64,000 nt of DNA from Pseudomonadota bacterium (GTDB lineage Bacteria; Pseudomonadota; Alphaproteobacteria; Rhizobiales; Aestuariivirgaceae): NCBI GenBank assembly GCA_020161855.1, contig JAIUNJ010000006.1, forward strand, positions 111,127 through 175,126. The letters run 5' to 3'. The first letter of the stretch is position 1. Every line of letters begins with the position of its first letter. Positions 34,678-55,360 of the stretch are shown piece by piece. The notes below the pieces were generated by a model. It made no database searches. It was not told the origin of the DNA and saw only the letters and a list, made by a program, of their open reading frames with translations. The position numbers and the translations under genes are program-made.

Positions 34678-34696
34678 GGCTGCGGGGCTGCGGCCA

Positions 34697-35374
34697 TCAC
34701 CCGAGCCTCAGGGCTCTGGTCATTTCGGCAAGGATCGACACGGCGATCTCGGGCGCACCAACGGCACCGATAGGAAGGCCGATGGGACCATTGATGCGCG
34801 ACAGCTGATTGTCGCTGAAGCCCGCGGCCCTGAGGCGGTCAAGGCGCGCGGCCTGTGTCTTCTTCGAGCCGAGCGCGCCGATGTAGAAAACATCGGACTT
34901 CAGCGCCAGATCCAGCGCCGGATCGTCGATCTTTGGATCATGTGTGAGCGCGATGAAGGCCGTGCGCTGGTCGAGGCCGATCTTGGGAATGATCTCGTCC
35001 GGCCATTCGGCGTGAAGATGGATGTCGGGGAAGCGTGCGCCCGTGGCAAAAGCGCCGCGCGGATCGACCACCCAGATGTCGTAACCGACGGCGCGGGCCA
35101 TGGGGATCAGTGCCTGGGCGATGAGCACGGCGCCTGTTACGACCAGGCGGAGCGGCGGATTGTGAACGGTGACAAAGACCTCACCCTTCTCAGTCTGCTC
35201 CACGCCTGACTTGTCGAAGCGGAAGGCCTTGTCGAGAATGGCCGCAAGCTCATCATCGGCCGCAGCCTCGCGGGCGACGATGCGCTGCTGGCCCGAGGCA
35301 AGATCGGTGATGACAGCAACGGGACGGCGCGCAGCGCGGGCAGCAAGAACCTCGGCCAGAAGTGCGGGAGTCAT
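34697..35374 (-). CDS. XdhC/CoxF Rossmann domain protein
   Basis: A 225-residue protein with the C-terminal XdhC domain (VVTGAVLIAQALIPMARAVGYDIWVVDPRGAFA, then ALTHDPKIDDPAL and YIGALGSKKTQAARLDRLRAAG). XdhC-type proteins bind the molybdenum cofactor and pass it to the hydroxylase after sulfuration. Here the N-terminal XdhC_CoxI domain is a separate gene just upstream, so the chaperone is split. Confidence 0.88.
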   Translation of the reverse strand: MTPALLAEVLAARAARRPVAVITDLASGQQRIVAREAAADDELAAILDKAFRFDKSGVEQTEKGEVFVTVHNPPLRLVVTGAVLIAQALIPMARAVGYDIWVVDPRGAFATGARFPDIHLHAEWPDEIIPKIGLDQRTAFIALTHDPKIDDPALDLALKSDVFYIGALGSKKTQAARLDRLRAAGFSDNQLSRINGPIGLPIGAVGAPEIAVSILAEMTRALRLG

Positions 35375-35429
35375 CGAATCCGGTCTTTCCGCCCCGGCGG
35401 CAGCACATGCAGGGCTGCGTGACGCAGCT

Positions 35430-35744
35430 TCACTTTACCGCCTCCACCAGGATCCTGATCTTGCCACCGCAGGCAAGGCCGACCTTCCAGGCGGTTTCAT
35501 CGGCAACACCGAAGGACAGGAGCTTATGGCCACCCTGCCCGATCAGATCCATGGCTTCCGTGATGACCGCGCCTTCAACGCAGCCACCGGAAACAGCTCC
35601 TTCAAAATTGCCTTCGGCATCGACCACAAGCTGGCTGCCCACCGGCTGCGGCGCCGAACCCCAGGTTTCAATGACCGTGGCGATGGCGAGCTTGCGGCCT
35701 TCCGCCAGCCACTGGCCTGCCGTTTCAAGCGTGCCGTTCTGCAT
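35430..35744 (-). CDS. XdhC/CoxI N-terminal domain protein
   Basis: A 104-residue protein carrying only the XdhC_CoxI domain: ATVIETWGSAPQPVGSQL, GAVSGGCVEGAVI with the conserved Cys, and GLACGGKIRILVE. It is the missing half of the Rossmann protein 55 bp downstream. Both should act together in cofactor insertion into CoxL. Confidence 0.87.
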   Translation of the reverse strand: MQNGTLETAGQWLAEGRKLAIATVIETWGSAPQPVGSQLVVDAEGNFEGAVSGGCVEGAVITEAMDLIGQGGHKLLSFGVADETAWKVGLACGGKIRILVEAVK

Positions 35745-35759
35745 GATGGCCTCCCTCTC

Positions 35760-36998
35760 TCAGCGCTGCAGCGCCTTGCGCATCCACTTCGCCGGATCAT
35801 GGGCATCCGAACGCTTCTCTGCAAGGGTCCGGGCCAGATCCGACAGGCTGTCGAGGCTGTGAACCGGGCGGAATTCATCGACATGAGGCATCATGGCGCG
35901 GATGCCGCCGGCGCGGGCCTCGAAGCCGGAAAAGCGCAGCAGCGGATTGAGCCAGACGATGCGGCGGGCCGAACGGCGCAGGCGCTTCATCTCCGCGGCG
36001 AGCGAGTCCACGTCCTCCCGGTCGAGGCCGTCGGTCATCAGCAGGACATGGGCGCCCTGCCCCAGCACGCGCCTTGCCCATTTGATGTTGAACTCGCGCA
36101 GGGCCGGGCCGATGCGCGTGCCGCCGGACCAGTCCTTGACGGCGGCGGAAACCTTGGCGAGGGCCTCGTCGATATCCTTGCGCCGCAATTCGCGCGTGAT
36201 GTTGGTCAGCCTGGTGCCGAAGAGGAACACATGTACGCGGTCATGGTCGTTGATCAGCGTGTGCAGGAAATGCAGGAACATGCGCGTGTAGTTCGAGCAG
36301 GAGCCGGAGATATCGCAGAGGATGACGAGCGGCGGCTCGCGCCAGCGCCGCTCCTTGCGGGCGATATCGACAACCTGCCCGCCCGCACGGATGACACCGC
36401 GCAGGGTGCGCCGCATGTCGATGCGGCGGCCGGCATGGGCAGCCCGGTAACGCCGCGTCGGCACCTCGATGCGGTTCAGCCTGATGCGGCGCAGGGCCTG
36501 GCGCGCCTCGGCCTGCTCCTCCAGCGTCATCTGCTCGAAATCCTTGGCGCGGAGGATCTCGCTGGCCGACGCGGTGAACGAGGCATCAACCTCCAGTTCC
36601 TCCTGGCGCTGGCGGCTCTGCACTTCCGCCTTCTCGAACATCGCCTCGGCGAGGCGGCGAAAGCCCGCCTGCTTGCGGTTCTCGTGCGGCTTGCGGGCGA
36701 TCTGCTGATACATGAGCTGCATCAGCTGCTGCAGCATCTTGGGCTTCTTCCAGAAGACATGGAAAGCCTGATCGAAAATCTCGCGCTGCTCGCGGCGCTT
36801 CACGAAGACGGCGTGGAGTGTCCAGTAGAAATCGGCACGGCGCAACAGCGGCCCGGCACGCACCGCATCGAGTGCATCAAGCACAGCACCCGGCCCCACC
36901 GGTATACCTGCCTCGCGCAGCACACGGGCAAAATGCATGATGTTCTCGGCGAGCTTGCCGGAGGGCGGCAGCGTCGACTGTGCCGCGCCGCCAGGCAT
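35760..36998 (-). CDS. coxE: VWA domain protein CoxE
   Basis: A 412-residue protein with a von Willebrand factor A domain whose MIDAS motif is CDISGSCSNY, preceded by a long basic helical part. CoxE works with the AAA+ CoxD to mature the [CuSMoO2] site in CO dehydrogenase. I used the ATG at 36998, which overlaps the coxD stop by one base (TGATG), instead of the longer frame that would run into coxD. Confidence 0.88.
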   Translation of the reverse strand: MPGGAAQSTLPPSGKLAENIMHFARVLREAGIPVGPGAVLDALDAVRAGPLLRRADFYWTLHAVFVKRREQREIFDQAFHVFWKKPKMLQQLMQLMYQQIARKPHENRKQAGFRRLAEAMFEKAEVQSRQRQEELEVDASFTASASEILRAKDFEQMTLEEQAEARQALRRIRLNRIEVPTRRYRAAHAGRRIDMRRTLRGVIRAGGQVVDIARKERRWREPPLVILCDISGSCSNYTRMFLHFLHTLINDHDRVHVFLFGTRLTNITRELRRKDIDEALAKVSAAVKDWSGGTRIGPALREFNIKWARRVLGQGAHVLLMTDGLDREDVDSLAAEMKRLRRSARRIVWLNPLLRFSGFEARAGGIRAMMPHVDEFRPVHSLDSLSDLARTLAEKRSDAHDPAKWMRKALQR

Positions 36999-37921
36999 CA
37001 CACGCGCCCCATGCTGCGCAGTTCGTCCTTCACCTGATCGAGAATGCGCTTGGCCTCGGAACCTTCCATGCGCGAGATGTCGTCCTGATACTTGAGCAGT
37101 ACACCCAGCGTGTCGTTGACGGTCTGGGGATCCAGCGTCACGCAATCCAGCTCATGCAGGGCCGAGACCCAATCGAGCGTTTCGGCGACGCCCGGCGCCT
37201 TGTAGATGTCGCCGCCGCGTAAGGCCTGTACGAAGCCCACAACCTCGCGCGCCAGCTCCGCCGAGGCCTGCGGGCGCTTGGCCCTGAGGATCGCCACTTC
37301 GCGCGCTGCATCCGGATAGCCCACCCAGTGATAGAGGCAGCGGCGCTTCAGCGCGTCGTGCACTTCACGGGTACGGTTCGAAGTAATGATGACGATGGGC
37401 GGTTCCTTGGCCTTGATGGTGCCAAGCTCGGGGATCGTCACCTGGAAATCGGAGAGCACTTCCAGCAGGAAGGCCTCGAAGGCTTCATCGGTGCGGTCCA
37501 GTTCGTCGATGAGCAGCACCGGTGCCTCGCCATCGCCGCTGTCGAGCGCCTGCAGCAGCGGGCGGCGGATGAGGAAGCGTTCGGCAAAGACATCGGATGA
37601 GAGGCGCTCGCGGCTGATCGTGCCCTCGGCCTCCGCCAGCCTGATCTCGATCATCTGGGCGGGATAGTTCCACTCATAGACGGCGCTCGCCACGTCGAGG
37701 CCCTCGTAGCATTGCAGGCGGATCAGCTTGCGTCCCAGCGCCTGCGCCAGCACCTTGGCGATCTCGGTCTTGCCGACACCGGCCTCGCCCTCGAGGAACA
37801 GTGGCCGCCCCATGCGCAGGGCGAGGAAAACCACCGTGCCGAGGTCACGCCCCGCCACATAGTCTCCGCTTTTGAGAAGCGCGATGGTGTCGTCAATCGA
37901 GGCAGGCAGAGCTTGCGGCAT
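36998..37921 (-). CDS. coxD: MoxR-type AAA+ ATPase CoxD
   Basis: A 307-residue MoxR ATPase: Walker A GEAGVGKTE, Walker B VLLIDELDR, sensor region IITSNRTREVHDALKRRCLYHWVGYP. In Oligotropha CoxD is needed for cofactor maturation. It is separated from coxM by a rho-independent terminator, so its transcription needs read-through or its own promoter. Confidence 0.9.
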   Translation of the reverse strand: MPQALPASIDDTIALLKSGDYVAGRDLGTVVFLALRMGRPLFLEGEAGVGKTEIAKVLAQALGRKLIRLQCYEGLDVASAVYEWNYPAQMIEIRLAEAEGTISRERLSSDVFAERFLIRRPLLQALDSGDGEAPVLLIDELDRTDEAFEAFLLEVLSDFQVTIPELGTIKAKEPPIVIITSNRTREVHDALKRRCLYHWVGYPDAAREVAILRAKRPQASAELAREVVGFVQALRGGDIYKAPGVAETLDWVSALHELDCVTLDPQTVNDTLGVLLKYQDDISRMEGSEAKRILDQVKDELRSMGRV

Positions 37922-37940
37922 GGTCAGTCAACACTAGCAG

Positions 37941-37973
37941 AAAAAACAGATGGCCGGGAAAGACCCGGCCATC
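37941..37973 (-). terminator. Rho-independent terminator after coxM
   Basis: Minus-strand stem GATGGCCGGG/CCCGGCCATC (37973-37964 with 37958-37949), five-base loop, then TGTTTTTT. It divides coxSLM from coxDEF. Confidence 0.87.
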
Positions 37974-38005
37974 CGATCATTGCAGGGGATAGATGGTCCA
38001 GAGCC

Positions 38006-38797
38006 TTACTTCGCCGCGGCCACGGCGCGCTTGGCCATGACCGAGATGAGATGGGCACGATAAGCCGCCGAGGCGTGGATATCGCTGTTGAGGCCCTTGG
38101 CCTTGACGCTGACGCCATTCAGCGCATCGGCCGAGAACTTCTTCGACAGTGCTTCCTCGAACTCCGGCACCCGGAACACGCCAGGGCCTGCGCCCGTGAC
38201 CGCCACACGCACCTTGCCGTCCTTGCCCTGCGCCACGAAGACGCCGACGAGGGCATAGCGCGAGGCCGGGTTCGGGAACTTGGCATAGCCGGCCTTGGCT
38301 GGAACCGGGAACTCGATGCCGGTGATGATCTCGCCGTCCTTGAGGGCTGTCGAGAACAGCCCCGTGAAGAACTTGTCGGCGGCGATCTTGCGGGCATTGG
38401 TGTGAACCGTTGCGCCGAGGGCCAGAACCGCCGAGGGATAATCGGCGGCGGGGTCGTTGTTGGCGACCGAGCCACCGATGGTGCCGCGGTTGCGCACTTG
38501 CGGATCGCCGATGCCGCCCGCCAGGGTGGACAGCGCCGGGACCGCCTTCTTGACGCCCTTGTCAGCCGCGACAGCGGCGTGAACCGTGCCCGCCGCGATG
38601 ACGACGGACTTGGCCCCGACCTTGACGCCTGAATTCTTCAGGCCGCCGAGATCAATGAGCGCCGACGGTGCGGCAAGCCCCTGCTTGATCGTGGGCAGCA
38701 GAGTCATGCCGCCGGAGAGCAGCTTGCTCTCCTTGGTTTTTGCGAGCTTGACCGCATCGGCAAGCTTGGCGGGACGGTGAAAGTCAAAGTTTTCCAT
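38006..38797 (-). CDS. coxM: CO dehydrogenase-like FAD-binding subunit
   Basis: A 263-residue medium subunit. FAD-binding motifs LLSGGMTLLPTIKQG and TLAGGIGDPQVRNRGTIGGSVANNDPAADY are intact, and the CO_deh_flav_C domain follows. It passes electrons from the iron-sulfur subunit to the acceptor. Third gene of the coxS-coxL-coxM order, which is the form II arrangement. Confidence 0.93.
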   Translation of the reverse strand: MENFDFHRPAKLADAVKLAKTKESKLLSGGMTLLPTIKQGLAAPSALIDLGGLKNSGVKVGAKSVVIAAGTVHAAVAADKGVKKAVPALSTLAGGIGDPQVRNRGTIGGSVANNDPAADYPSAVLALGATVHTNARKIAADKFFTGLFSTALKDGEIITGIEFPVPAKAGYAKFPNPASRYALVGVFVAQGKDGKVRVAVTGAGPGVFRVPEFEEALSKKFSADALNGVSVKAKGLNSDIHASAAYRAHLISVMAKRAVAAAK

Positions 38798-38813
38798 GGT
38801 GTCTCCTCCTCGC

Positions 38814-41177
<2,364 letters not shown>

Positions 41178-41191
41178 GACAGCCTCCTCCC

Positions 41192-41656
<465 letters not shown>

Positions 41657-42548: not shown

Positions 42549-42629
42549 TAGGTTTTGTCTGGGGCTTGGCCCGGGCTTTCAAGTATTGAGACGCTGCGGG
42601 CATCATCTTTATTCAGGGGAGACAATACC

Positions 42630-43700
42630 ATGGCGTTCGTTGCACTTTCCGGCGGGTCTTCAGGAAATCTCAACGTCTCACAATACAGCTACGGCTACTT
42701 TGCCGATACGGTCATCGTCATCGATAATCCCAGTTCCGCGAGTTATACGATCAAGACGTATGAGGACAATGACATCATCGACCTGAGGCGCGGCACGAGC
42801 GGCGGGCTGATTGCTACAATATACGCCGGCTCCGAAAACGACCGGGTCTATGGCAGCGCCGGCAGCGACACTGTCTATGACGGCAGCGGAAACGACATCA
42901 TCTCGCTGGGGCGTGGCGCAGACCTGAGCTTTGTTGGAACCGGCAACGACTATATCGACGGTGGGGAAGGCATCGACACGGTGGATTTCTCCGGCCTGAA
43001 CGACGACGGTTTCGGAGCCACCGACAGCGCCGGCAGCAACACCGGCGGCATCACGCTCGATCTGAAGCTGAGAACAGCCCAGAATCTCGGTTACTACGGC
43101 ACAGACAGCATTCTCAACTTCGAGAACGTGAATGGCTCTCCCGGCAACGACACAATCTATGGCACCGATGGCGCCAACATCATCAGTGGTGGATATGGCG
43201 ACGACAAGCTTTATGGCCGCGGTGGCGACGATACTATTCACGCGTGGATTGGAAAGAGCTTGATCGTTGGCGGGAGCGGCAAAGACACAATCGAACTCGC
43301 GGGCGATTTTGCTGGCCAAGGTCCGCATTATCCCAGTCCGGACGCCTTTTCAGACAGAGTGAGCTATCTCGCGGTAAGCGACAGCACTCCGACCGGTTTC
43401 GACACGATCTGGGCCTTTAATATAGCAGGCACCACTGCGACAACCGCCGATGACGACAAGATTGACATCTCCGCCCTTGATGGAAATACCAAAGTTTCGG
43501 GAAACCAGGCCTTCACATGGCGGGGTAATGCCGCCAGCTTCGGTACCAATGCGGCAGGCGAAGTGCGCTGGCAGGCAGCCACGGCGGATGGCTATTCCGG
43601 GATCAAGATCTTTATCGACACAGACGCCGATGCCGATGCCGAGATGGTGATCTTCATCGGCTACCTGACCTCAATAGGGCAAGCAGACTTCATCCTGTGA
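42630..43700 (+). CDS. RTX (hemolysin-type calcium-binding repeat) protein 1
   Basis: A 356-residue secreted protein without an N-terminal signal peptide. Calcium-binding nonapeptide-like repeats are found around GSAGSDTVYDGSGNDIISLG, GTGNDYIDGGEGIDTVDF and GGYGDDKLYGRGGDDTIHAW. The C-terminus ends ADFIL, a typical uncleaved type I secretion signal. The N-terminal part matches no domain I know. Start at 42630 has an AGGGGAGA ribosome site. No type I transporter genes are adjacent, so export depends on an unlinked system. Confidence 0.85.
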   Translation: MAFVALSGGSSGNLNVSQYSYGYFADTVIVIDNPSSASYTIKTYEDNDIIDLRRGTSGGLIATIYAGSENDRVYGSAGSDTVYDGSGNDIISLGRGADLSFVGTGNDYIDGGEGIDTVDFSGLNDDGFGATDSAGSNTGGITLDLKLRTAQNLGYYGTDSILNFENVNGSPGNDTIYGTDGANIISGGYGDDKLYGRGGDDTIHAWIGKSLIVGGSGKDTIELAGDFAGQGPHYPSPDAFSDRVSYLAVSDSTPTGFDTIWAFNIAGTTATTADDDKIDISALDGNTKVSGNQAFTWRGNAASFGTNAAGEVRWQAATADGYSGIKIFIDTDADADAEMVIFIGYLTSIGQADFIL

Positions 43701-43749
43701 AGACTGCGGCGTCAACGAAAAGCTGAAAATTTGGGCAGGACCGCGATCC

Positions 43750-43761
43750 TAACCATGGTTA
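43750..43761. promoter_or_regulatory. TAACCATGGTTA palindrome upstream of RTX gene 2
   Basis: A perfect 12-bp palindrome 105 bp before the second RTX gene. Each strand shows TAACCAT, seven of eight bases of the CtrA-type TTAACCAT octamer described in Rhizobiales. Confidence 0.35.
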
Positions 43762-43865
43762 CGAAATCGTAAACCTGCGCCCTTCCCTTGTGGAATGATT
43801 CCGACTAGCTTCGCCGCACCGGGGTTGAACTTAGCGAAGTCTATATTGGGGGGACATGATCAGTC

Positions 43866-44978
43866 ATGGCCAGTTCAACTGTTTATCTCGACGGTGACGA
43901 TTGGGGTGATTTTGCCGAGCGTCCTGCCGAAGACTGGGGCTATTGCGCCGACAAGGTCGTTGTCAAAAGCACCTGGGTCGATGGCGGCGACGGCAATTTC
44001 CTGATCGCCACCTATGAGAGCGATGACGAGATCGACACGCGGGAACACAGCTTCACCGGGTCACGGGTCTTCATCTTCGCCGGCTCCGGCGACGATATCG
44101 TGCTCGGGGGCAACGGCAGCGAGCATGTCTTCGACGGCAGCAATTGCGATTACCGGACGATGTCGGTGCCGTTCGGAACATTGTCTATTTCCGGTGGCGA
44201 CTACCTGAATCTCGGCGGCGGCGACGACGTGGTCGAAGTTGGCGCAGGCGACGATACCTATATCGGCGGCGACCATGTCGATGGCGACTGGCTGATGTTC
44301 CGCTGGCTGAGCAATGATGGCCTGAGCCCGCTCGTCAAGAACGACCAGTATGGCGTGACAGTCGACCTTGCCAACACAACAACCGCGCAGGACTGGGACG
44401 GAGCAGCCAACTACGACGACCACTATGGCTCAGACATCATCTCGGGCTTTGAACATGTCGTGGGCGGCGGAAAGAATGACACGATCTCCGGCAACAGCGC
44501 CAAGAACAAGCTTTATGGCGGGGCTGGTGACGACAAGCTCTATGGCCGCGATGGCGCAGACACACTCTATGGCGGCAGCGGCAAGGATACGCTCGAAGGC
44601 GGAAAAGGCGCTGACTACATCTACCTGACCGGCGACGACAACGCGAAGTCCGACACGGCCTCACGCGACACCGTCGTCTACAGAAGCATCTCCGACAGCG
44701 GCAACACGCTGGCCACACGCGATGTGATCTATTTCTTCGACCGCGGTGGCGGCGCCAACGACGACAAGATCGATCTCTCGGCACTCAACGGCGCGCAGAA
44801 GCTGGTCTGGCGCGGCTTCGCCAGCAGCTTCGGCACCGATGCGCGCGGCGAGGTGCGGCTCGAGAAGGTTGGCCAGAGCATTCTCGTGCATGTCGACACC
44901 GATGGCGACCGCGCCACCGAAATGTCGTTCTATGTCTATGGAGTCAGCACCCTCACGAGCGCCGACTTCATTCTCTGA
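43866..44978 (+). CDS. RTX (hemolysin-type calcium-binding repeat) protein 2
   Basis: A 370-residue paralogue of the preceding RTX protein. Repeats are seen in LGGGDDVVEVGAGDDTYIGG and in the block GGAGDDKLYGRDGADTLYGG followed by SGKDTLEGGKGADYIYL. Same C-terminal plan (DDKIDLSALNG, LVWRGFASSFGTDARGEVR, TSADFIL), so the pair arose by duplication. The ribosome site is weak: GGGGGG lies about 12 bp before the ATG. Probably exported by a type I system encoded elsewhere. Confidence 0.85.
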   Translation: MASSTVYLDGDDWGDFAERPAEDWGYCADKVVVKSTWVDGGDGNFLIATYESDDEIDTREHSFTGSRVFIFAGSGDDIVLGGNGSEHVFDGSNCDYRTMSVPFGTLSISGGDYLNLGGGDDVVEVGAGDDTYIGGDHVDGDWLMFRWLSNDGLSPLVKNDQYGVTVDLANTTTAQDWDGAANYDDHYGSDIISGFEHVVGGGKNDTISGNSAKNKLYGGAGDDKLYGRDGADTLYGGSGKDTLEGGKGADYIYLTGDDNAKSDTASRDTVVYRSISDSGNTLATRDVIYFFDRGGGANDDKIDLSALNGAQKLVWRGFASSFGTDARGEVRLEKVGQSILVHVDTDGDRATEMSFYVYGVSTLTSADFIL

Positions 44979-47102: not shown

Positions 47103-48065
47103 TTACAGGCCCTTGGCAAGAGGCCCCGGGGTGCGCCGCAACATGCTCGGCGGCCTCCCGTAGCAGTCGCGGAAGGCGCGGGAGAATTCCGCCAGCGTCG
47201 AGAAACCGGTGGCCAGCGAAACATCGCGCACCGACATGTGCGAATAGGTGAGAAGGCGTTCAGCGCGCTCGAGGCGGATGCGGCGGTAAACCCCCATGGG
47301 CCGGGCCCTGAGCCCATCGCGGAAAAGCCGCTCCATGCTGCGCACCGAAACGCCCGCATGGCCCGCAAGCTGTGGTGCCGAAAGCGGCTCCTCCATGTTC
47401 TGCTCCATGGCCGCGATGACGGCGAGCAGGCGCGGATCGCGCGTGGCATAACGCATCTGGGCGGGCGCCCGCACCTGCCCCTGCTCACCCTGATTGCGGA
47501 AGTGAATGAGCTGGTCTGCCACCATGACGGAAAGCCCCTGTCCCATCTGGTCGCCAATCCAGCCGAGCATCATGTCGATGGCCGCAGCACCACCTGCAGA
47601 AGTGAGCCGGTCCCTGTCCTTCTCATAGAGCGCCTCGGTGGCGATGACCTGCGGAAAGCTCTCGCGGAAACCCGGCAGGCTCTCCCAGTGGCAGGTGGCA
47701 CGATAACCATCGAGCACACCCGCCTCCGCCAGCAGGAAGGGGCCGGTGTCGATGGCGGCAAGCTGCACCTTCTGGCGCGCCAGCTTGCGGATCGCACCAA
47801 GCATGGGCCGGGAGATTCCGGCTTCCGGCTCGTAGCTTGCCGCGACCATGGCCATGGTTGGCTTGCCAAGGCTCGCGAGATCGCCGCCAACCGAGACGGG
47901 AATGCCGTTGGAGGCCGCGACCGGCGCACCATCGACCGAGACGAAACGCCAGGAAAAGACCTCGCCCGCAAAACGGTTGGCCACGCGCAAGGGCTCGACG
48001 GCGCCATAAAGCGCAATCATCGAAAAACGCGGCACAAGCAGAAAGGCAACGTCGAAGCGGGCCAT
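47103..48065 (-). CDS. GlxA/AraC-family regulator, CdhR-like
   Basis: A 320-residue regulator: N-terminal DJ-1/PfpI-like amidase domain (about 1-190; the nucleophile region reads AAIDTGPFLLAEAG, without a Cys elbow), then two AraC helix-turn-helix motifs (LSAPQLAGHAGVSVRSMERLF and MSVRDVSLATGFSTLAEFSRAFRD). CdhR of Pseudomonas activates carnitine catabolism and belongs here. It is divergent from the carnitine operon. TTGACA-18-CATAAT lies so close to the ATG that the mRNA may be leaderless. Confidence 0.85.
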   Translation of the reverse strand: MARFDVAFLLVPRFSMIALYGAVEPLRVANRFAGEVFSWRFVSVDGAPVAASNGIPVSVGGDLASLGKPTMAMVAASYEPEAGISRPMLGAIRKLARQKVQLAAIDTGPFLLAEAGVLDGYRATCHWESLPGFRESFPQVIATEALYEKDRDRLTSAGGAAAIDMMLGWIGDQMGQGLSVMVADQLIHFRNQGEQGQVRAPAQMRYATRDPRLLAVIAAMEQNMEEPLSAPQLAGHAGVSVRSMERLFRDGLRARPMGVYRRIRLERAERLLTYSHMSVRDVSLATGFSTLAEFSRAFRDCYGRPPSMLRRTPGPLAKGL

Positions 48066-48070
48066 GGCGA

Positions 48071-48100
48071 ATTATGTCAAATCTTGGCGGAATTTGTCAA
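48071..48100 (-). promoter_or_regulatory. Promoter of the CdhR-like gene
   Basis: Minus strand TTGACA (48100-48095), 18-bp spacer, CATAAT (48076-48071). Five bases later comes the ATG (48065), so transcription should begin on or next to the start codon. Confidence 0.5.
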
Positions 48101-48102
48101 AT
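48075..48102 (+). promoter_or_regulatory. TGTCAAAT direct repeat, 20-bp period, likely AraC-type operator
   Basis: TGTCAAAT at 48075-48082 and 48095-48102. AraC-family proteins bind direct repeats spaced two helical turns apart. It overlaps both promoter boxes of the regulator and lies 46-73 bp upstream of the operon ATG, allowing autorepression and activation from one site. Confidence 0.5.
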
Positions 48103-48147
48103 GCGGGCTATTGGCGGGTCTAGTTTGCCGCCCACGGAGGAGACCCC

Positions 48148-49035
48148 ATGCAGTCAAAAGTCATTATCACATGCGCCGTCACAGGCGCTGGCGACACGGT
48201 GGGCAAGAGCCCGAATGTGCCCGTTACCCCGGAACAGATCGCCAATGCCGCGCTCGAAGCCGCAAGCGCCGGCGCCACGGTCGTTCACTGCCACGTGCGC
48301 GAGCCGAAGACCGGCAAGGGTTCGCGCCGCGTCGACTACTACCGCGATGTGATGGAACGCATCCGCGCCAAGAATAGCGATGTGATCATCAACCTGACCG
48401 CCGGCATGGGTGGTGACGTGGTGATCGGCGACGGCGAGAAGCCGCTCGACTTCGGCCCCGGCACAGATTGCGTAGGCCCCGAGGAACGCCTCGTCCACAT
48501 CAAGGAGCTGCGCCCGGAAATCTGTACCCTCGACTGCGGCACGCTCAACTTCGGCGACGGCAACTCCATCGTCGTGCAGACGCCGACGCAGCTGCGCAAA
48601 CAGGCCGAACTGATCAAGTCCTACGGCGTGAAGCCGGAGATGGAGATCTTCGACTCGGGCAATCTCTGGTTCGCCAACCAGCTGGTCAAGGAAGGCCTGA
48701 TCGCCGACCAGCCGCTCTACCAGCTCTGCCTCGGCATTCCCTGGGGTGCGCCCTTCGACAGCGAGACCATGGCCTACCAGAAGGCGCAGCTGCCGCCGAA
48801 CGCCATCTGGGCCTCCTTCGGCATCGGCCGCAACCAGTTCCCGGCGGTGGCACAGGCGGTGCTGCTCGGCGGCCATGTGCGCGTCGGCCTCGAAGACAAT
48901 CTGTATCTCGAGAAGGGCGTGTTCGCCACCAACGGCACACTCGTCGAAAAGGCCGTGAAGCTCATCGAGCTCCTGGGTACCAAGGTCGCTTCTCCCGAGG
49001 AAGGCCGCGCCATTCTCGGCCTGAAGAAGCGGTGA
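48148..49035 (+). CDS. Beta-keto acid cleavage enzyme (BKACE), dehydrocarnitine-cleaving type
   Basis: A 295-residue TIM-barrel zinc enzyme. Zinc-binding His47 and His49 in VVHCHVREP, the [20 protein letters not shown] opening, and [21 protein letters not shown] match BKACE. Next to carnitine dehydrogenase the substrate is expected to be 3-dehydrocarnitine plus acetyl-CoA, giving betainyl-CoA and acetoacetate (role of CdhC in Pseudomonas). GGAGG ribosome site. First gene of the operon, 5 bp before the dehydrogenase. Confidence 0.87.
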
Positions 49036-49040
49036 GCGCC

Positions 49041-50030
49041 ATGAAGATCAAGACCGTCGGCATTGCCGGAACCGGCCTCATCGGTGCGGGCTGGGCCGCC
49101 CGCCTGCTCTTCCGTGGCTTTGACGTCATTGCCTATGACGTCTCACCCGCAGCGGAAGAGAAGCTCAAGGCCCAGATCAAGACCGCCTGGCCCTCGCTGG
49201 AGAATCTGCTGGGCAAGCCCAAGAAGAAGGGCAAGCTCAAATTCACGACTGATCTCAAAGAGATGGCATCAAAGTCTGACTTCATACATGAAGCAGCACC
49301 AGAGCGCGAAGAGCTCAAGATCAGGCTCTTCAAGGAGATCGATGCGGCAGCCCGCCCCGACGTGATCATCGCCTCCTCGTCGTCAGGCTTCCTGCCAACC
49401 AACCTGCAGAGCCAGTGCGCCCATCCCGAGCGCATCATCATCGGCCACCCCTTCAACCCGGTCTACCTCCTGCCGCTGGTCGAGACCGTGCCCGGCGAGA
49501 AGACCTCGGAAGAGGCCATGGACCGCGCCGGGGTCTACTTCGAGGCCATCGGCATGCATGTGCTGCGCCTCAAGAAGGAGATCATGGGCTATATCTGCGA
49601 CCGCCTGCAGGAAGCCCTGTGGCGCGAGGCGCTGCACATCCTCAACAAGGACATCGGCACCACCGGAGACATCGACGATTCCATCGTCTATTCGGCGGGC
49701 ATGCGCTGGGCCTTCATGGGTTCATTCCTCACCTATCATCTCGCAGGTGGCCCCGGCGGCATGCGCGACTTCATCAAGCAATTCGATCCGACGCTTGAAC
49801 TGGACTGGACCGACCTCAAGTTCCCCAAGTGGAACGCCACGCTGGAACAGCGGCTGGTCGAGGGTTGCGAAGCCCAGGCAGGCGGCCGCGCGGTGCGGGA
49901 GATCGAGGCCAAGCGCAACGCCGTGCTGGTCGACATGATGAAGCTCTTCAAGAAGCACAAGATCGGTGCCGGCCTTGTGCTCGACCGCGAGATCAAGGCA
50001 ATGAAGAAGCCCAAGGGCAAGAAGAAGTGA
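49041..50030 (+). CDS. lcdH: L-carnitine 3-dehydrogenase
   Basis: A 329-residue 3-hydroxyacyl-CoA-dehydrogenase-fold enzyme. NAD motif GTGLIG at 10-15, IASSSSGFLPT and GHPFNPVYLLPLVE hold the catalytic region, and the C-terminal domain matches carnitine dehydrogenase (GDIDDSIVYSAGMRWAFMG, TYHLAGGPGGMRDFI). It oxidises L-carnitine to 3-dehydrocarnitine. The thioesterase domain fused to some LcdH proteins is absent. Gene lies between BKACE and an SDR. Confidence 0.88.
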   Translation: MKIKTVGIAGTGLIGAGWAARLLFRGFDVIAYDVSPAAEEKLKAQIKTAWPSLENLLGKPKKKGKLKFTTDLKEMASKSDFIHEAAPEREELKIRLFKEIDAAARPDVIIASSSSGFLPTNLQSQCAHPERIIIGHPFNPVYLLPLVETVPGEKTSEEAMDRAGVYFEAIGMHVLRLKKEIMGYICDRLQEALWREALHILNKDIGTTGDIDDSIVYSAGMRWAFMGSFLTYHLAGGPGGMRDFIKQFDPTLELDWTDLKFPKWNATLEQRLVEGCEAQAGGRAVREIEAKRNAVLVDMMKLFKKHKIGAGLVLDREIKAMKKPKGKKK

Positions 50031-50091
50031 GTATCAGCGCGTGGCGATCGTCCACGCGCTGCGTGCTCCATATGTCGCAGCGGAGGAACGC

Positions 50092-50859
50092 ATGTCTCAA
50101 CGCGTCATGATCACGGCGGCGGCCACCGGCATCGGCCGCTGCATCGCCCGCACCTTCCATGAGAACGGTGCGAAAGTTCACGTCTGCGATGTGAACGAAG
50201 AGGCGCTTGAAAACTTCCGGGAGGAGTTTCCGGAGATCGGCGCAACCCACGTCAACGTGCGCAGCGAAGCTGAAGTCGAAGCATGGTTCGACGAAGCGCT
50301 CGACGACCTCGGCGGCCTCGACGTCATGGTCAACAATGCCGGCATCAAGGGCCCGACAGCGCAGGTCGATGACATCGACTATGCCGACTGGAAGGAATGC
50401 CTGGAAGTGGGCATCGACTCGTATTTCTTCTGCGCCCGCCGCACCGCCCCCATCCTCAAGGACCAGCGCGGCGGCACCATCATCAACCTCTCGTCAACGG
50501 CAGGCCTTTTCGGCTTCGGCAACCGCACACCCTACGCGGTCGTGAAATGGGGCGTGATCGGCTTCACAAAATCGCTGGCGATCGAACTTGGCCCCTTCAG
50601 CGCCACCTGCAATGCCATCTGCCCGGGCGTTGTGAAGGGTGACCGCATCAACCGCGTGATCCAGGGTGAAGCCGACTTGCGCGGCGTGCCCTTCGAGACA
50701 GTGGCAGCCCAGATGGTGGGCGGCCAGTCGATCCCGCGCTTTGTCGAACCACAGGAGATTGCCGACATGGCCTTCTTCCTCGCCTCCCCGGCGGCAAAAA
50801 TGGTGAACGGCCAGGCCATCGCCGTCGATGGCCATTCCGAAACTTTCCACATCAGGTGA
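50092..50859 (+). CDS. Short-chain dehydrogenase/reductase in the carnitine operon
   Basis: A 255-residue classical SDR. Cofactor motif TAAATGIG (TGxxxGIG degenerate at the first Gly), NNAG, and the YxxxK pair in TPYAVVKWG. Start at 50092 has GGAGG 5-9 bases upstream. In this setting it might act on a hydroxyacyl or quaternary-amine alcohol. Substrate not deducible. Six bp before the acyl-CoA dehydrogenase. Confidence 0.83.
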   Translation: MSQRVMITAAATGIGRCIARTFHENGAKVHVCDVNEEALENFREEFPEIGATHVNVRSEAEVEAWFDEALDDLGGLDVMVNNAGIKGPTAQVDDIDYADWKECLEVGIDSYFFCARRTAPILKDQRGGTIINLSSTAGLFGFGNRTPYAVVKWGVIGFTKSLAIELGPFSATCNAICPGVVKGDRINRVIQGEADLRGVPFETVAAQMVGGQSIPRFVEPQEIADMAFFLASPAAKMVNGQAIAVDGHSETFHIR

Positions 50860-50865
50860 CATCTC

Positions 50866-52029
50866 ATGGATTTCAATCTCAGCGAAGAACAGCAGATGAT
50901 CGTCAAGACGACGCGCGATTTTGTCGTCAACGAGCTCTACCCCCATGAGGCCGAGATCGAGGAAACGGGCGTGCTGCGCCCGGAGCTGCGCGACTCGATC
51001 AAGAAGAAGGCCATGGAAGCCGGCCTCTATGCTGCGAACCTCCCCGCCGAGGTGGGTGGTGCAGGCCTCGATACGCTGACCTGGGTGCTCTATGAGAAGG
51101 AACTGGGCAAGGCCAACTATGCCCTGCACTGGACCTGCGTGTTCCGGCCTTCGAACATCCTCATGGCCTGCAACGAGGAGCAGCGGCAGAAGTATCTCTA
51201 TCCCGCGGTGCGCGGCGAAGCCTCCGACTGCCTAGCCATGACCGAGCCCGGCATTGGCTCCGACCTGCGCGGCATGAAGACCTTCGCCAAGCAGGACGGC
51301 GACTGGTTCGTCATCAATGGCACCAAGCATTTCATCAGCCATGCTGACGAATCCACTTTCTGCATCCTCTTTGCAGCGACGGGAGAAGAAGAAACATCGC
51401 GCGGCAAGAAGAAGCTGATCACCGCCTTCCTGATCGACATCGGCACGCCCGGCTTCACGGTGCGCATGGGCTACAAGAACGTCAGTCACCGCGGCTACAA
51501 CAACTGCATTCTCGAGTTCAACGATTGCCGCGTGCACAAGTCGCAAATCCTCGGCGAGATTCACAAGGGCTTCGAGGTTGCCAATGAATGGCTGGGCGCC
51601 ACGCGCCTGCAGGTCGCTTCCACCTGCCTTGGGCGGGCCGAGCGGGCGCTGGAACATGCCAAGCAGTATGCGGTGGACCGCGTGCAGTTCGGCCAGCAGA
51701 TCGGCAAGTTCCAGGGCGTGTCCTTCAAGCTTGCCGACATGGCGCTGGAACTGAAGGCAGCCGAGCTACTCACCCGCGAGGCCGCCTGGAAATTCGACCA
51801 GAAGACCGTAACCGACATGGACATGGCGATGGCCAAGCTGAAGGCCACCGAAGTTCTGGCCTTCATTGCCGACGAGGCGATCCAGATTCACGGTGGCATG
51901 GGCCTGATGAGCGACCTGCCGCTGGAGCGTATCTGGCGCGACGCCCGCGTGGAACGCATCTGGGAAGGCACCAGCGAAATCCAGCGCCACATCATCAGCC
52001 GTGCGCTGCTGCGGCCGCTGGGAGGCTGA
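50866..52029 (+). CDS. Acyl-CoA dehydrogenase in the carnitine operon
   Basis: A 387-residue flavoenzyme. LAMTEPGIGSDLRGMKTFA holds the FAD/substrate binding motif, and Glu367 in RIWEGTSEIQRHI is the catalytic base position. It is closer to general acyl-CoA dehydrogenases than to CaiA. Its place suggests oxidation of gamma-butyrobetainyl-CoA to crotonobetainyl-CoA. Cotranscribed with a GNAT gene 3 bp downstream. Confidence 0.87.
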   Translation: MDFNLSEEQQMIVKTTRDFVVNELYPHEAEIEETGVLRPELRDSIKKKAMEAGLYAANLPAEVGGAGLDTLTWVLYEKELGKANYALHWTCVFRPSNILMACNEEQRQKYLYPAVRGEASDCLAMTEPGIGSDLRGMKTFAKQDGDWFVINGTKHFISHADESTFCILFAATGEEETSRGKKKLITAFLIDIGTPGFTVRMGYKNVSHRGYNNCILEFNDCRVHKSQILGEIHKGFEVANEWLGATRLQVASTCLGRAERALEHAKQYAVDRVQFGQQIGKFQGVSFKLADMALELKAAELLTREAAWKFDQKTVTDMDMAMAKLKATEVLAFIADEAIQIHGGMGLMSDLPLERIWRDARVERIWEGTSEIQRHIISRALLRPLGG

Positions 52030-52032
52030 AAC

Positions 52033-52485
52033 ATGGCGGACATTCTGATCCGCAAGGCGGAGGCTGGCGACGAGGCGCGATGGCGGGAGCTCTTTGCCGC
52101 CTACAACAAGTTCTATCGCGCCAGCGTTCCCGAAGACGTGGTCAGGCACACCTGGGCCCGCATTCTCGATCCGCAGAACGGCATGGAAGCACTGGTGGCC
52201 GTGCAGGACGGCAGGGTCGTGGGTATCTGCAACTACCTCTTCCACGACTCTACCTGGAGCATACGGCCCAGCTGCTACCTCGAAGATCTTTTCGTCGATC
52301 CCGAGTGCCGTGGCGGCGGCGCAGCGCGGAAGCTGATCCTCGCCTGCGAGGCTGACGCGCGCGCCAAGAACGCCCGGCGGCTCTACTGGCAGACGCAGGA
52401 ATACAACGCCGCCGCCCGCTCGCTTTACGACACGATTGTTCCGCGCTCGTCATTCATCGTCTACCGCAAGAGCCTCGAAGAATAA
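52033..52485 (+). CDS. GNAT family N-acetyltransferase
   Basis: A 150-residue acetyltransferase-fold protein. The acetyl-CoA loop is DLFVDPECRGGGAARKLI, with WQTQEYNAAARSLYD after it. Substrate unknown; it could acylate a small amine or modify the neighbouring CoA ligase, as Pat does for acyl-CoA synthetases, but this is inference. Sits 6 bp before the ligase. Confidence 0.83.
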   Translation: MADILIRKAEAGDEARWRELFAAYNKFYRASVPEDVVRHTWARILDPQNGMEALVAVQDGRVVGICNYLFHDSTWSIRPSCYLEDLFVDPECRGGGAARKLILACEADARAKNARRLYWQTQEYNAAARSLYDTIVPRSSFIVYRKSLEE

Positions 52486-52491
52486 GCCGCC

Positions 52492-54525
52492 ATGACACGT
52501 CTCGCCCGCTTCATCTCCCCGCGTTCGATCGCCTTCATTGGCGGGAATGAATGCGAGATCGCCATCCGGCGCACCAAGGAATTCAACTTCGACGGCAAGA
52601 TCTATGCCGTCCATCCCAAGCGCGAACAGCTTGCGGGCATCGCCACGGTCAAGTCGGTGGAGGAGATCGATGGCCCCATCGACGCGGCCTTTATCGCCGT
52701 GAAGCGCGAACCCACGGTGGATGTCGTGCGCCAACTCCGCGCCAAGGGCTGCTCGGGTGCTGTGATCTATGCCGCTGGCTTTGCCGAGGCCGGCGACACG
52801 GCCCTGCAGGACCAGCTTCTGGCCGCCGCCGATGGCATGCGGCTCATGGGCCCCAATTGCTACGGCTTCGTCAACGGCCTCGGGCGCGTTGCATTGTGGC
52901 CCGATGAACATGGCATCAGGCCGCTGGAACGCGGCATCGCCATCATCACGCAATCAGGCAATATCGCCTGCAACCTGACCTTCACCAAGCGCGCCCTGCC
53001 CCTCGCCTGCGTCTTTGCCATCGGCAACCAGGCCGATGTCGACATGTCGGACATGATCGCCGCCCTCGCGCAGGATGAGCGCATCACAGCCGTGGGCCTG
53101 CATGTCGAAGGCCTGAAGGACCTCCCGGCTTTCGCCCGGGCCTGCGAGGCGGCACGCGCCGCACGCAAGCCCATTGTCGTGCTGAAGACCGGGCGTTCCG
53201 AACAGGGCGCCAAGGTGGCGATGAGCCACACGTCATCGCTCGCCGGTGCCGACCAGCTCTATGACGCGCTGTTCGAGCGCCATGGCGTGGTGCGCTCGAC
53301 ATCGATCACGGCCTTTGTGGAGACCTTGAAGTTCCTGCATTTCGGTGCGCTGGCTGGTGGCCGGCTTGTTTCGCTCTCGTGTTCGGGTGGCGAAGCGGCA
53401 CTGGCCGCCGATCTCGCCATGGGCCGTGGTGTTTCCTTCCCGCCCTTCGATCCGGTCACCAGGCCCAAGGTGGCGGCGACGCTCAACGAGTTCGTGGCCA
53501 TCGACAACCCGCTCGACTACCACACCTTCATCTGGAACCAGGAAGAGAAGCTGACCAACACCTTCACGGCGGTGTTGTCCGGTGGCTTCGACGTGGCGAT
53601 GCTGATCCTCGACACGCCAACCCAGCCGCACATGGATCCTGCCGCCTGGCTCAAGACGGCGCGTGCCTTCCGTCAGGCAGCCCAGAGCAACAAGGCCCGG
53701 GCCGCCGTGGTGGCCACCCTGCCCGAATGCCTGCCGCTCGACCTCGCCGATGAACTGGCACAATCCGGCATTGCCCCGATGTTCGGCCTTGATGACGCGC
53801 TCACGGCCTTTGAGGCCGCGGCAAGGCTCGGCGAGAACTGGGCCCGCAGTGAGAAGGCGCCGGAGCTTGCTCCCGCCAATGCGCCCGGCGGCACCGACAG
53901 CGTGCTGAGCGAGATCGCAGCCAAGGCATTGCTCAAGGGCTTCGGCCTCAGCGTTCCGGATGGTGCAGAATGCAACATTGCGGAAGCCCCGCAGCTTGCC
54001 GACCGGATCGGCTATCCGGTGACGCTCAAGGTGTCCTCCGCCGCCATCGCCCACAAGACCGAAGCAGGTGGTGTTGCCCTCAATCTGAAGAACCGTGATG
54101 AGGTGGCCGCCGCAGCCCAGCGCATGGCGAAGCTCTCGGACAAGGTTCTGGTCGAGCGCATGGTGACGGGAGCCGTGACCGAACTGATCATTGGCGTGAA
54201 ACGCGATCCGCAGTTCGGCCTGGCGCTTGTTGTTGGCGCAGGCGGCATCCTCACCGAGCTCCTGAAGGATTCGGCAGCGCTGCTGTTGCCCACTTCGCGC
54301 GCAGAAATCGCCCGTGCCCTGAAAGGCCTGAAGGTGTGGAAGCTGGTCGAAGGCTTCCGTGGCAAGTCCGGCGATCCGGAAGCGATCATCGCCGCCGTTG
54401 AGGCCGTCGCCACTTTCGCCCAGACCCACCGCGGCACGCTCGAGGAACTTGATGTCAACCCGCTGCTCGTCCTCCCGAAGGGCGCTGTTGCAGTCGATGC
54501 TCTCGTAAGGATGAGGAAGCCATGA
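52492..54525 (+). CDS. ADP-forming acyl-CoA synthetase (acetate-CoA ligase family)
   Basis: A 677-residue NDP-forming ligase: CoA-binding domain (about 1-125), succinyl-CoA ligase-like domain (about 145-440) with the phospho-His246 in VAMSHTSSLAGAD, and C-terminal ATP-grasp domain (about 460-677; YPVTLKVSSAAIAHKTEAGGV, DVNPLLVLP). It would activate a carboxylate such as gamma-butyrobetaine, crotonobetaine or carnitine to its CoA ester, replacing CaiC/CaiB. Stop overlaps the next ATG by 4 bases. Confidence 0.87.
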   Translation: MTRLARFISPRSIAFIGGNECEIAIRRTKEFNFDGKIYAVHPKREQLAGIATVKSVEEIDGPIDAAFIAVKREPTVDVVRQLRAKGCSGAVIYAAGFAEAGDTALQDQLLAAADGMRLMGPNCYGFVNGLGRVALWPDEHGIRPLERGIAIITQSGNIACNLTFTKRALPLACVFAIGNQADVDMSDMIAALAQDERITAVGLHVEGLKDLPAFARACEAARAARKPIVVLKTGRSEQGAKVAMSHTSSLAGADQLYDALFERHGVVRSTSITAFVETLKFLHFGALAGGRLVSLSCSGGEAALAADLAMGRGVSFPPFDPVTRPKVAATLNEFVAIDNPLDYHTFIWNQEEKLTNTFTAVLSGGFDVAMLILDTPTQPHMDPAAWLKTARAFRQAAQSNKARAAVVATLPECLPLDLADELAQSGIAPMFGLDDALTAFEAAARLGENWARSEKAPELAPANAPGGTDSVLSEIAAKALLKGFGLSVPDGAECNIAEAPQLADRIGYPVTLKVSSAAIAHKTEAGGVALNLKNRDEVAAAAQRMAKLSDKVLVERMVTGAVTELIIGVKRDPQFGLALVVGAGGILTELLKDSAALLLPTSRAEIARALKGLKVWKLVEGFRGKSGDPEAIIAAVEAVATFAQTHRGTLEELDVNPLLVLPKGAVAVDALVRMRKP

Positions 54526-55304
54526 CCAACCCGATCAAAACCGAACGCCGTGGCCGCGTGCTGGAAGTGACCATCGACCGGCCCAAGGCCAATGCCATTG
54601 ATGCCGCCACGAGCCGCATCATGGGCGATGTCTTTGCGAGCTTTCGTGACGACCCTGAACTGCGCGTCGCGGTGCTGACCGCAACGGGGGAAAAGTTCTT
54701 CTGTCCGGGCTGGGATCTGAAGGCAGCAGCCAACGGCGAGCGGCCTGACGTCGACTATGGTGTCGGCGGCTTCGGTGGCCTGCAGGAACTCAAGGGCCTG
54801 AACAAGCCGGTGATCTGCGCCGTGAACGGCCTCGCCTTCGGTGGCGGCTTCGAGATCATGATTTCCTGCGACATCATCATCGCCGCAGAACATGCAACCT
54901 TCGCCCTGCCCGAAATCAACTCCGGCACGGTGGCCGATGCTGCAACGATCAAGCTGCCGCGCTTCATTCCCTATCACGTGGCGATGGAGATGCTCTTCAC
55001 CGGCCGGCGCATCGACACGGCAGAAGCCAAGCAGTGGGGCATCATCAATGAAGTGGTACCGGCCGACAGGCTGATGGCACGGGCCCGCGAATTGGCCGAA
55101 CAACTCGCAGACGGCCCGCCGCTGGTCTATGCCTGCATCAAGGAAATCAGCCGCGAGACCATGCACCTGCCCATCCAAGAGGCGTTCAACATGGTGACCA
55201 AGCGCAAGCTGCCCACGGTGGACAAGCTCTATTCCTCGGATGACCAGATGGAGGGCGCACGGGCCTTCGCCGAAAAGCGCAAGCCGGTGTGGAAGGGCAA
55301 GTAA
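54522..55304 (+). CDS. caiD: CaiD-like crotonobetainyl-CoA hydratase
   Basis: A 260-residue crotonase. It aligns with E. coli CaiD along its whole length: DRPKANAIDAATS, FFCPGWDLKAAANGE, VNGLAFGGGFE with Glu111, FALPE with Glu131, FAEKRKPVWKGK at the end. It would hydrate crotonobetainyl-CoA to L-carnitinyl-CoA. Last gene of the operon, with a terminator following. Other enoyl-CoA hydratases are possible, but the GWDLKAA and PVWKG segments favour CaiD. Confidence 0.8.
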   Translation: MTNPIKTERRGRVLEVTIDRPKANAIDAATSRIMGDVFASFRDDPELRVAVLTATGEKFFCPGWDLKAAANGERPDVDYGVGGFGGLQELKGLNKPVICAVNGLAFGGGFEIMISCDIIIAAEHATFALPEINSGTVADAATIKLPRFIPYHVAMEMLFTGRRIDTAEAKQWGIINEVVPADRLMARARELAEQLADGPPLVYACIKEISRETMHLPIQEAFNMVTKRKLPTVDKLYSSDDQMEGARAFAEKRKPVWKGK

Positions 55305-55334: not shown

Positions 55335-55360
55335 AAAGGCCGCCCGTTCAGGCGGCCTTT
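55335..55360. terminator. Bidirectional rho-independent terminator after caiD
   Basis: GGCCGCC (55338-55344) and GGCGGCC (55351-55357), six-base loop, flanked by AAA and TTT. It ends the carnitine operon and, from the other side, the 42-aa gene. Confidence 0.8.

Follow-up and report, generated by a model that had tools for sequence, protein, structure and literature searches.

How might a bacterium turn gamma-butyrobetaine (GBB) into glycine betaine with the products of one operon, and which enzyme would release coenzyme A (CoA) along the way? These questions are raised by a gene cluster in a 64,000-nucleotide stretch of contig JAIUNJ010000006.1 (the whole stretch is hereafter the window, and coordinates refer to it), from an Aestuariivirga-like genome, a 3.36-Mb draft in 19 contigs. 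The operon occupies 48148-55304 on the + strand, and we judge it likely, from the sequence comparisons below, that it would serve the use of GBB, crotonobetaine and carnitine under local regulation. The original prediction, made from the letters of the window, had listed eight genes, one of them a divergent regulator; all were recovered in the order it gave, and all eight genes within 47103-55304 are open frames:

47103..48065, - strand: regulator of the AraC family with a DJ-1/PfpI (GATase1-like) domain, GbdR/CdhR kind (HTH_18 and DJ-1_PfpI, Pfam)
48066..48101, no strand: tandem direct repeat GGCGAATTATGTCAAA / GGCGGAATTTGTCAAA in the regulator-BKACE intergenic region, copies spaced by 20 bp; probable operator
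48148..49035, + strand: BKACE (PF05853, 325 bits)
49041..50030, + strand: LcdH (L-carnitine dehydrogenase), 329 amino acids, without a fused 4HBT thioesterase domain (NCBIfam scores, homology)
50092..50859, + strand: short-chain dehydrogenase (SDR), putative second 3-hydroxy acid dehydrogenase (PF13561/PF00106)
50866..52029, + strand: acyl-CoA dehydrogenase, predicted to convert GBB-CoA to crotonobetainyl-CoA (rhizobial homologues, WEGTSE motif)
52033..52485, + strand: GNAT acetyltransferase (PF00583)
52492..54525, + strand: ADP-forming acyl-CoA synthetase, predicted GBB/crotonobetaine:CoA ligase (BcoAB homology)
54522..55304, + strand: CaiD-like crotonobetainyl-CoA hydratase (PRK03580 score, rhizobial homologues)
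55335..55360, + strand: stem-loop, weak terminator candidate (fold z-score -3.08)

The intergenic gaps from BKACE to the hydratase are, in order, 5, 61, 6, 3, 6 and -4 bp, with a possible earlier SDR start at a GTG at 50041. The unit is therefore as compact as had been predicted, although the several overlaps reduce to one, of 4 bp. The terminator expected after the last gene corresponds to the hairpin at 55335-55360 (-23.1 kcal/mol, z -3.08), which is followed by just three T, was not among the hits of the terminator scan and is thus retained as a weak candidate.

In the proposed route, the ADP-forming ligase would convert GBB to GBB-CoA, the acyl-CoA dehydrogenase would form crotonobetainyl-CoA, and the CaiD-like hydratase would yield L-carnitinyl-CoA. 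Release of CoA would then give L-carnitine, which LcdH would convert to 3-dehydrocarnitine; BKACE would turn 3-dehydrocarnitine and acetyl-CoA into betainyl-CoA and acetoacetate, and a second release of CoA would leave glycine betaine, which the genome is probably able to demethylate. The SDR, too, would most likely produce 3-dehydrocarnitine, its substrate being the opposite enantiomer of carnitine or a closely related 3-hydroxy acid. The substrates and the order of these steps are read from homology, and both CoA-release steps are without an enzyme in the operon; in rhizobia, they are assigned to the thioesterase domain of LcdH.

The rhizobial clusters supply the principal support for this route. 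In Rhizobium etli IE4803, the order is regulator, BKACE, LcdH-thioesterase, acyl-CoA dehydrogenase, acyl-CoA synthetase and caiD, after which come genes of an oligopeptide ABC transporter; Sinorhizobium meliloti Ak57 has the same order, with the ligase in two frames of 480 and 228 amino acids that are missing from the annotation table, an arrangement that fits the name BcoAB. The Ak57 record (L140, CP090106.1) is titled pSymB; its length is 3.72 Mb, presumably nearer the size of the S. meliloti chromosome, and the label may be wrong. The whole S. meliloti route from GBB to glycine betaine was reportedly described by Bazire et al. in J Bacteriol in 2019. In an excerpt of PMC8364193, S. meliloti BcoAB is the GBB:CoA ligase and is used to make GBB-CoA, and a passage of PMC12482172, citing Bazire et al. 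2019, attributes two functions to the dehydrogenase SM2011_c01638, the oxidation of carnitine and the conversion of betainyl-CoA to glycine betaine. The regulator, BKACE, LcdH, acyl-CoA dehydrogenase, ADP-forming ligase and CaiD-like hydratase thus stand in the same order in the window and in S. meliloti, whereas the window's LcdH lacks the thioesterase domain and its operon adds the SDR and GNAT genes. The ligase is fused in the window and in R. etli but split in S. meliloti, and ABC transporter genes follow the rhizobial clusters, in contrast to the flanking frames scanned in the window. Accordingly, the predicted union of a ligase-dehydrogenase-hydratase route with LcdH and BKACE matches the rhizobial clusters and stands, whereas its supposed novelty does not, the same arrangement being present in S. 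meliloti and R. etli.

Individual proteins agree with this parallel. Against the R. etli and S. meliloti clusters, identity is 55-56% for the BKACE (30-35% against BKACEs in other settings) and 63-64% for the acyl-CoA dehydrogenase; the hydratase is 68-69% identical to its rhizobial homologues and LcdH approximately 45% to the dehydrogenase part of rhizobial LcdH-thioesterase. The WEGTSE motif, which is catalytic in the acyl-CoA dehydrogenase family, lies at residue 366 of that protein. The ligase is a fused homologue of both BcoAB subunits; aligned over almost the full length, it is 47% identical to the fused ligase of R. etli and shares 42% and 46% identity with the two frames of S. meliloti, and it has the phospho-His motif SHT at residue 245. 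Furthermore, its pocket signature, NPLDYHTFIW, is nearly that of S. meliloti, NPLDYHTFVW, and NP[LF]DYHT[FY] is found in 53/60 ligase matches. The remaining seven comprise three partial or beta-only frames, L166 (no regular-expression match), L197 and L210 (DYTTP) and L212 (another motif).

As the original prediction proposed to check, the gene order was sought in relatives, and it recurs in related genomes, including R. etli and S. meliloti, which indicates that the arrangement is not due to chance. Judged by LcdH, the named relatives include Aestuariivirga litoralis KCTC 52945 (L119; 90% identical) and Hyphomicrobiales bins. The LcdH of two further bins, L136 and L128, is 82% identical to that of the window; their contig titles name Candidatus Planktophila lacus and Gammaproteobacteria bacterium, and both are probably misassigned. 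Rhizobia are known to convert GBB to carnitine aerobically by a CoA route, which is seen here in Aestuariivirga and other genomes of its order and class. The operon represents a known aerobic GBB/carnitine pathway in a conserved variant form, of interest for its lack of a CoA-release domain and for its additional dehydrogenase. The excerpts available on carnitine routes, D-carnitine dehydrogenase and BcoAB contain no description of the variant and name no gene for the supposed activity of the SDR, and no literature on Aestuariivirga with carnitine was found.

Comparison with other known systems places the operon further. According to part of a 2007 review (PMC2131755), the Rhizobium-like production strain HK4, near Rhizobium meliloti, converts GBB to L-carnitine in a manner analogous, not identical, to fatty acid degradation, and this resembles the beta-oxidation-like conversion proposed here; Table 2 of the review places HK4 under GBB hydroxylase, at odds with its own text. 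Pseudomonas aeruginosa shares the divergent AraC-family regulator (CdhR) and a path to glycine betaine through carnitine dehydrogenase and BKACE, but no CoA-dependent GBB branch figures in the relevant passages of PMC5806209 and PMC12482172. The Escherichia coli cai operon, as outlined in PMC2131755, likewise has a CaiD-like hydratase and an acyl-CoA dehydrogenase acting on the same CoA esters; the window differs in having an ADP-forming ligase instead of CaiB/CaiC, in having LcdH and BKACE attached, and in the lack of a CaiT-type BCCT in the genome. The predicted absence of CaiB and CaiC was borne out among the cluster genes, with the remaining genome not searched for either.

A route without GBB hydroxylase had also been predicted, and the genome is in keeping with it. 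In the available 91.9% of the genome, the N-terminal domain of GBB hydroxylase (PF06155) has two matches, one a short protein (170-residue open reading frame) and the other TmpA. This hydroxylase candidate was rejected as such: it scores 550 bits to TmpA and 168 to human GBB dioxygenase, and TmpB (307 bits) adjoins it. The TmpA/TmpB pair lies at L243 1450-3215 (G000:C13, ~291.3-293.0 kb), and with it the genome is probably also able to use 2-trimethylaminoethylphosphonate.

The regulator scores best against the NCBIfam GbdR model (264 bits, cut-off 480), and its homologues at the same place share 33% (R. etli), 33% (S. meliloti) and 44% (Novosphingobium) identity with it. Both copies of the repeat at 48066-48101 match GGCGNANNNNGTCAAA with 0 mismatches, 20 bp apart, and constitute a probable operator of the operon. 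A looser exact pair pattern has a single occurrence in the 3.36-Mb genome, at this locus, and its reversed control has 0; as the operator-like pair is unique in the genome, the regulator seems to act locally. Similar pairs reached p <= 0.01 in 33/58 intergenic regions, the consensus being drawn from the same sequences and the controls being single-base shuffles; the three rhizobial regions showed no similar pair.

How CoA would be released is the second question. In rhizobia and sister lineages, the thioesterase domain is fused to carnitine dehydrogenase; the window's LcdH is without it, its open frame continuing 15 amino acids past the matched domain, and profile scans of the cluster proteins revealed no thioesterase, as had been predicted. 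We compared 127 stretches, of which 100 carry BKACE and LcdH no more than 2.5 kb apart; the places retrieved included the best 60 of 102 outside the window's genome and 60 among the matches listed in another search. The ligase was scored within 8 kb, as unknown where too little downstream sequence was available. Among clusters with a ligase (n=55, window included), the thioesterase is fused to LcdH in 23 and absent in 32, so that its absence is a frequent change relative to rhizobia; among those without a ligase (n=45), it is fused in 23, separate in 8 and absent in 14, some of the 14 being cut by contig ends. In a quick LcdH tree of 94 rows (6/100 clusters with an LcdH score <400 left out; support <80 on 36/91 inner branches; thioesterase state unknown in 5 rows whose contig ends soon after LcdH), the window falls among 20 rows that form a clade lacking the domain (SH-aLRT 98), nested in a clade of 32 rows (99) in which bearers also occur. 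This nesting suggests that the domain was probably lost within the genus, and its presence probably changed elsewhere too, with at least 9 changes of the thioesterase label overall.

CoA release is most likely performed by a thioesterase encoded elsewhere, for which the best candidate is a stand-alone protein at G000:C4:30658-31140 that reaches 123 bits against a fused-domain model. Among solved structures, its closest relatives are 2hlj (a hypothetical protein) and 5eo2 (a thioesterase). In a survey of the genus, a match to it occurred in 36/37 genomes (E 1e-12), including G002, G004, G009 and G026, which also bear the fused domain; this coexistence points to an old paralogue able to serve rather than a split-off piece. 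Two more 4HBT_2 matches in the genome exceed the Pfam cut-off, of which one scores 42 bits on the fused-domain model and the other is not hit, and the operator pattern, searched as an exact match, is absent at the stand-alone gene.

The second choice for CoA release is the ligase itself. ADP-forming acyl-CoA synthetases are reversible, and running in reverse on L-carnitinyl-CoA and betainyl-CoA, the enzyme would recover ATP and make a thioesterase unneeded; the pathway would then be nearly ATP-neutral. The counts above lean this way, with the domain missing in 32/55 clusters with a ligase against 14/45 without, and the state 'no thioesterase, with ligase' requires at least 7 changes on the LcdH tree, so that it recurs in several ligase-bearing lineages. 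However, one genus dominates the counts, 23 ligase clusters keep the domain, and others have neither ligase nor thioesterase (for example L207, L208, L211 and L234). Moreover, the 5 independent pairs on supported branches show no association (median sign-test p 1), a number too small to reach 0.05. The ligase was hence set aside as the explanation of the loss, and release by its reversal is unlikely, at perhaps one chance in several.

The original prediction had suggested that a step is missing or that the GNAT or the SDR hides it, and the second of these options was not supported. Among 42 loci compared, 35 hold both the dehydrogenase and the ligase, and none (0/35) has a GNAT gene between them; relatives of 40-42% identity in L053 and L054 lie >4 kb upstream of BKACE. 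The GNAT gene, on this comparison, is an insertion and not a conserved part, which makes it an improbable CoA-release enzyme. The SDR, with a YAVVK motif at residue 148, belongs to an oxidoreductase family and occurs both with and without the thioesterase domain, and it was likewise rejected for the missing step.

The SDR probably acts as a second dehydrogenase making the keto acid for BKACE. It is present in 39/55 ligase-bearing clusters and 11/45 others, a second frequent change relative to rhizobia; an SDR upstream of the S. meliloti regulator was rejected as its orthologue (24.5% identity). In a plasmid collection, a relative of the SDR (E 1e-40) occurred in 74 records, of which 17 were opened and 16 were annotated. 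A BKACE gene lay near it in 11 of the 16 annotated stretches (11-17 kb; 5 or 8 kb on each side) and was absent in 5, and a search of the seventeenth, unannotated stretch for BKACE found none. Two of these stretches have a BKACE 50-51% identical to that of the window, directly followed by the SDR, with an acyl-CoA thioesterase downstream and no LcdH among the annotated genes; the other nine BKACEs are 30-35% identical to the window's. Seven plasmid loci (L149, L150, L151, L155, L157, L158 and L160) combine an SDR relative and a 3-hydroxyacyl-CoA dehydrogenase with a different BKACE (30-35%), and five of these also carry ABC transporters for sugars or branched-chain amino acids. Among 398 genomes sampled from the phylum, the SDR had four matches outside the window's genome: one in the carnitine-type cluster L255 (order BKACE, SDR, LcdH-thioesterase, with no ligase match), one in L253 with a distant BKACE (31%) ~7 kb away, and two without BKACE.

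The presence of two dehydrogenases for a single keto acid hints at opposite enantiomers as their substrates, and we would guess from this that the SDR acts on D-carnitine. An NAD-dependent D-carnitine dehydrogenase activity was reported from Agrobacterium in a 1997 paper cited in PMC5979481; should the SDR prove to oxidise D-carnitine, its gene would be a candidate for that purified activity. The fuller proposal, in which a bidirectional ligase regains ATP on release, the fused thioesterase was thereby dispensable and lost, and the SDR is a D-carnitine dehydrogenase so that both enantiomers are used, is rather improbable.

The assignment to GBB and carnitine has several observations against it. 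LcdH and the CaiD-like hydratase both fall below their NCBIfam equivalog cut-offs: LcdH scores 365 bits on the L-carnitine dehydrogenase model (PRK07066; cut-off 414; Burkholderia arboris 673, S. meliloti 331, R. etli 356) and the hydratase 332 bits on PRK03580 (cut-off 500; S. meliloti homologue 310). On the fused-type carnitine 3-dehydrogenase model (PRK07531), the window's LcdH reaches 328 bits, covering positions 3-333 of 495, and misses the cut-off of 592, which the S. meliloti (946) and R. etli (935) proteins clear. No BCCT match (PF02028) was found in the genome, a draft that is 91.9% complete, and the five flanking frames that were scanned contained no transporter: two encode RTX-repeat proteins, one has no match, and the others encode a LysR regulator and an SDR. 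Finally, as the stand-alone thioesterase also occurs in genomes bearing the fused domain, lacks the operator pattern at its gene and shares the genome with two other 4HBT_2 matches, nothing ties it to the pathway.

These scores could also mean that the substrate of the operon is not GBB or carnitine but an omega-substituted butyrate or 3-hydroxy acid akin to GBB. The window's LcdH and the rhizobial LcdH fall in different main branches of the quick tree, and L197 and L210, whose ligases carry DYTTP, suggest that the gene set is reusable. GBB and carnitine are favoured instead by the gene order shared with S. meliloti and R. etli, by the ligase signature common to the window and rhizobia, and by the far closer match of the BKACE to rhizobial ones than to those in other settings, and we give this other-substrate reading only a small chance. 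L197 and L210 themselves encode BKACE, an acyl-CoA dehydrogenase, a hydratase, an ADP-forming ligase with DYTTP for DYHTF and an LcdH that is further removed (292-293 bits); the scheme may be the same, applied to a different substrate.

It is highly improbable that the ligase is a DddX-like dimethylsulfoniopropionate (DMSP) lyase and the operon degrades DMSP via acryloyl-CoA: the best solved relative of the ligase by sequence is 7cm9, annotated as a DMSP lyase (250 bits), and the best NCBIfam model for the acyl-CoA dehydrogenase is acryloyl-CoA reductase (287 bits, under the cut-off of 640), but the S. meliloti dehydrogenase matches the latter likewise (306 bits), the rhizobial ligases are 42-47% identical to that of the window, DMSP breakdown would need neither LcdH nor BKACE, and, in an alignment read by eye using the numbering of an excerpt of PMC8163506, where Glu432 is the essential general base of DddX, the window's ligase has Pro for Glu432, His for Trp391 (in the stretch of the pocket signature) and Trp for Phe435, a residue check that makes DMSP lysis unlikely.

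Returning to GBB and carnitine use, the genome offers a plausible outlet for the betaine product. It has five FAO_M matches of the dimethylglycine/sarcosine dehydrogenase type, and its six MttB-family matches, at six places in the 3.36 Mb, suggest broad use of methylated amines. On the supply side, four OpuAC-type binding proteins are encoded.

Elsewhere in the window, two adjoining proteins with RTX calcium-binding nonapeptide repeats are encoded upstream of the carnitine region (42555-44978, + strand). A CO-dehydrogenase-like group occupies 33070-41525 (- strand), with a VWA CoxE-like protein, a MobA-like NTP transferase and a large molybdopterin-binding subunit carrying AYRGAGR, a motif that we take to mark a form II-like CO dehydrogenase.

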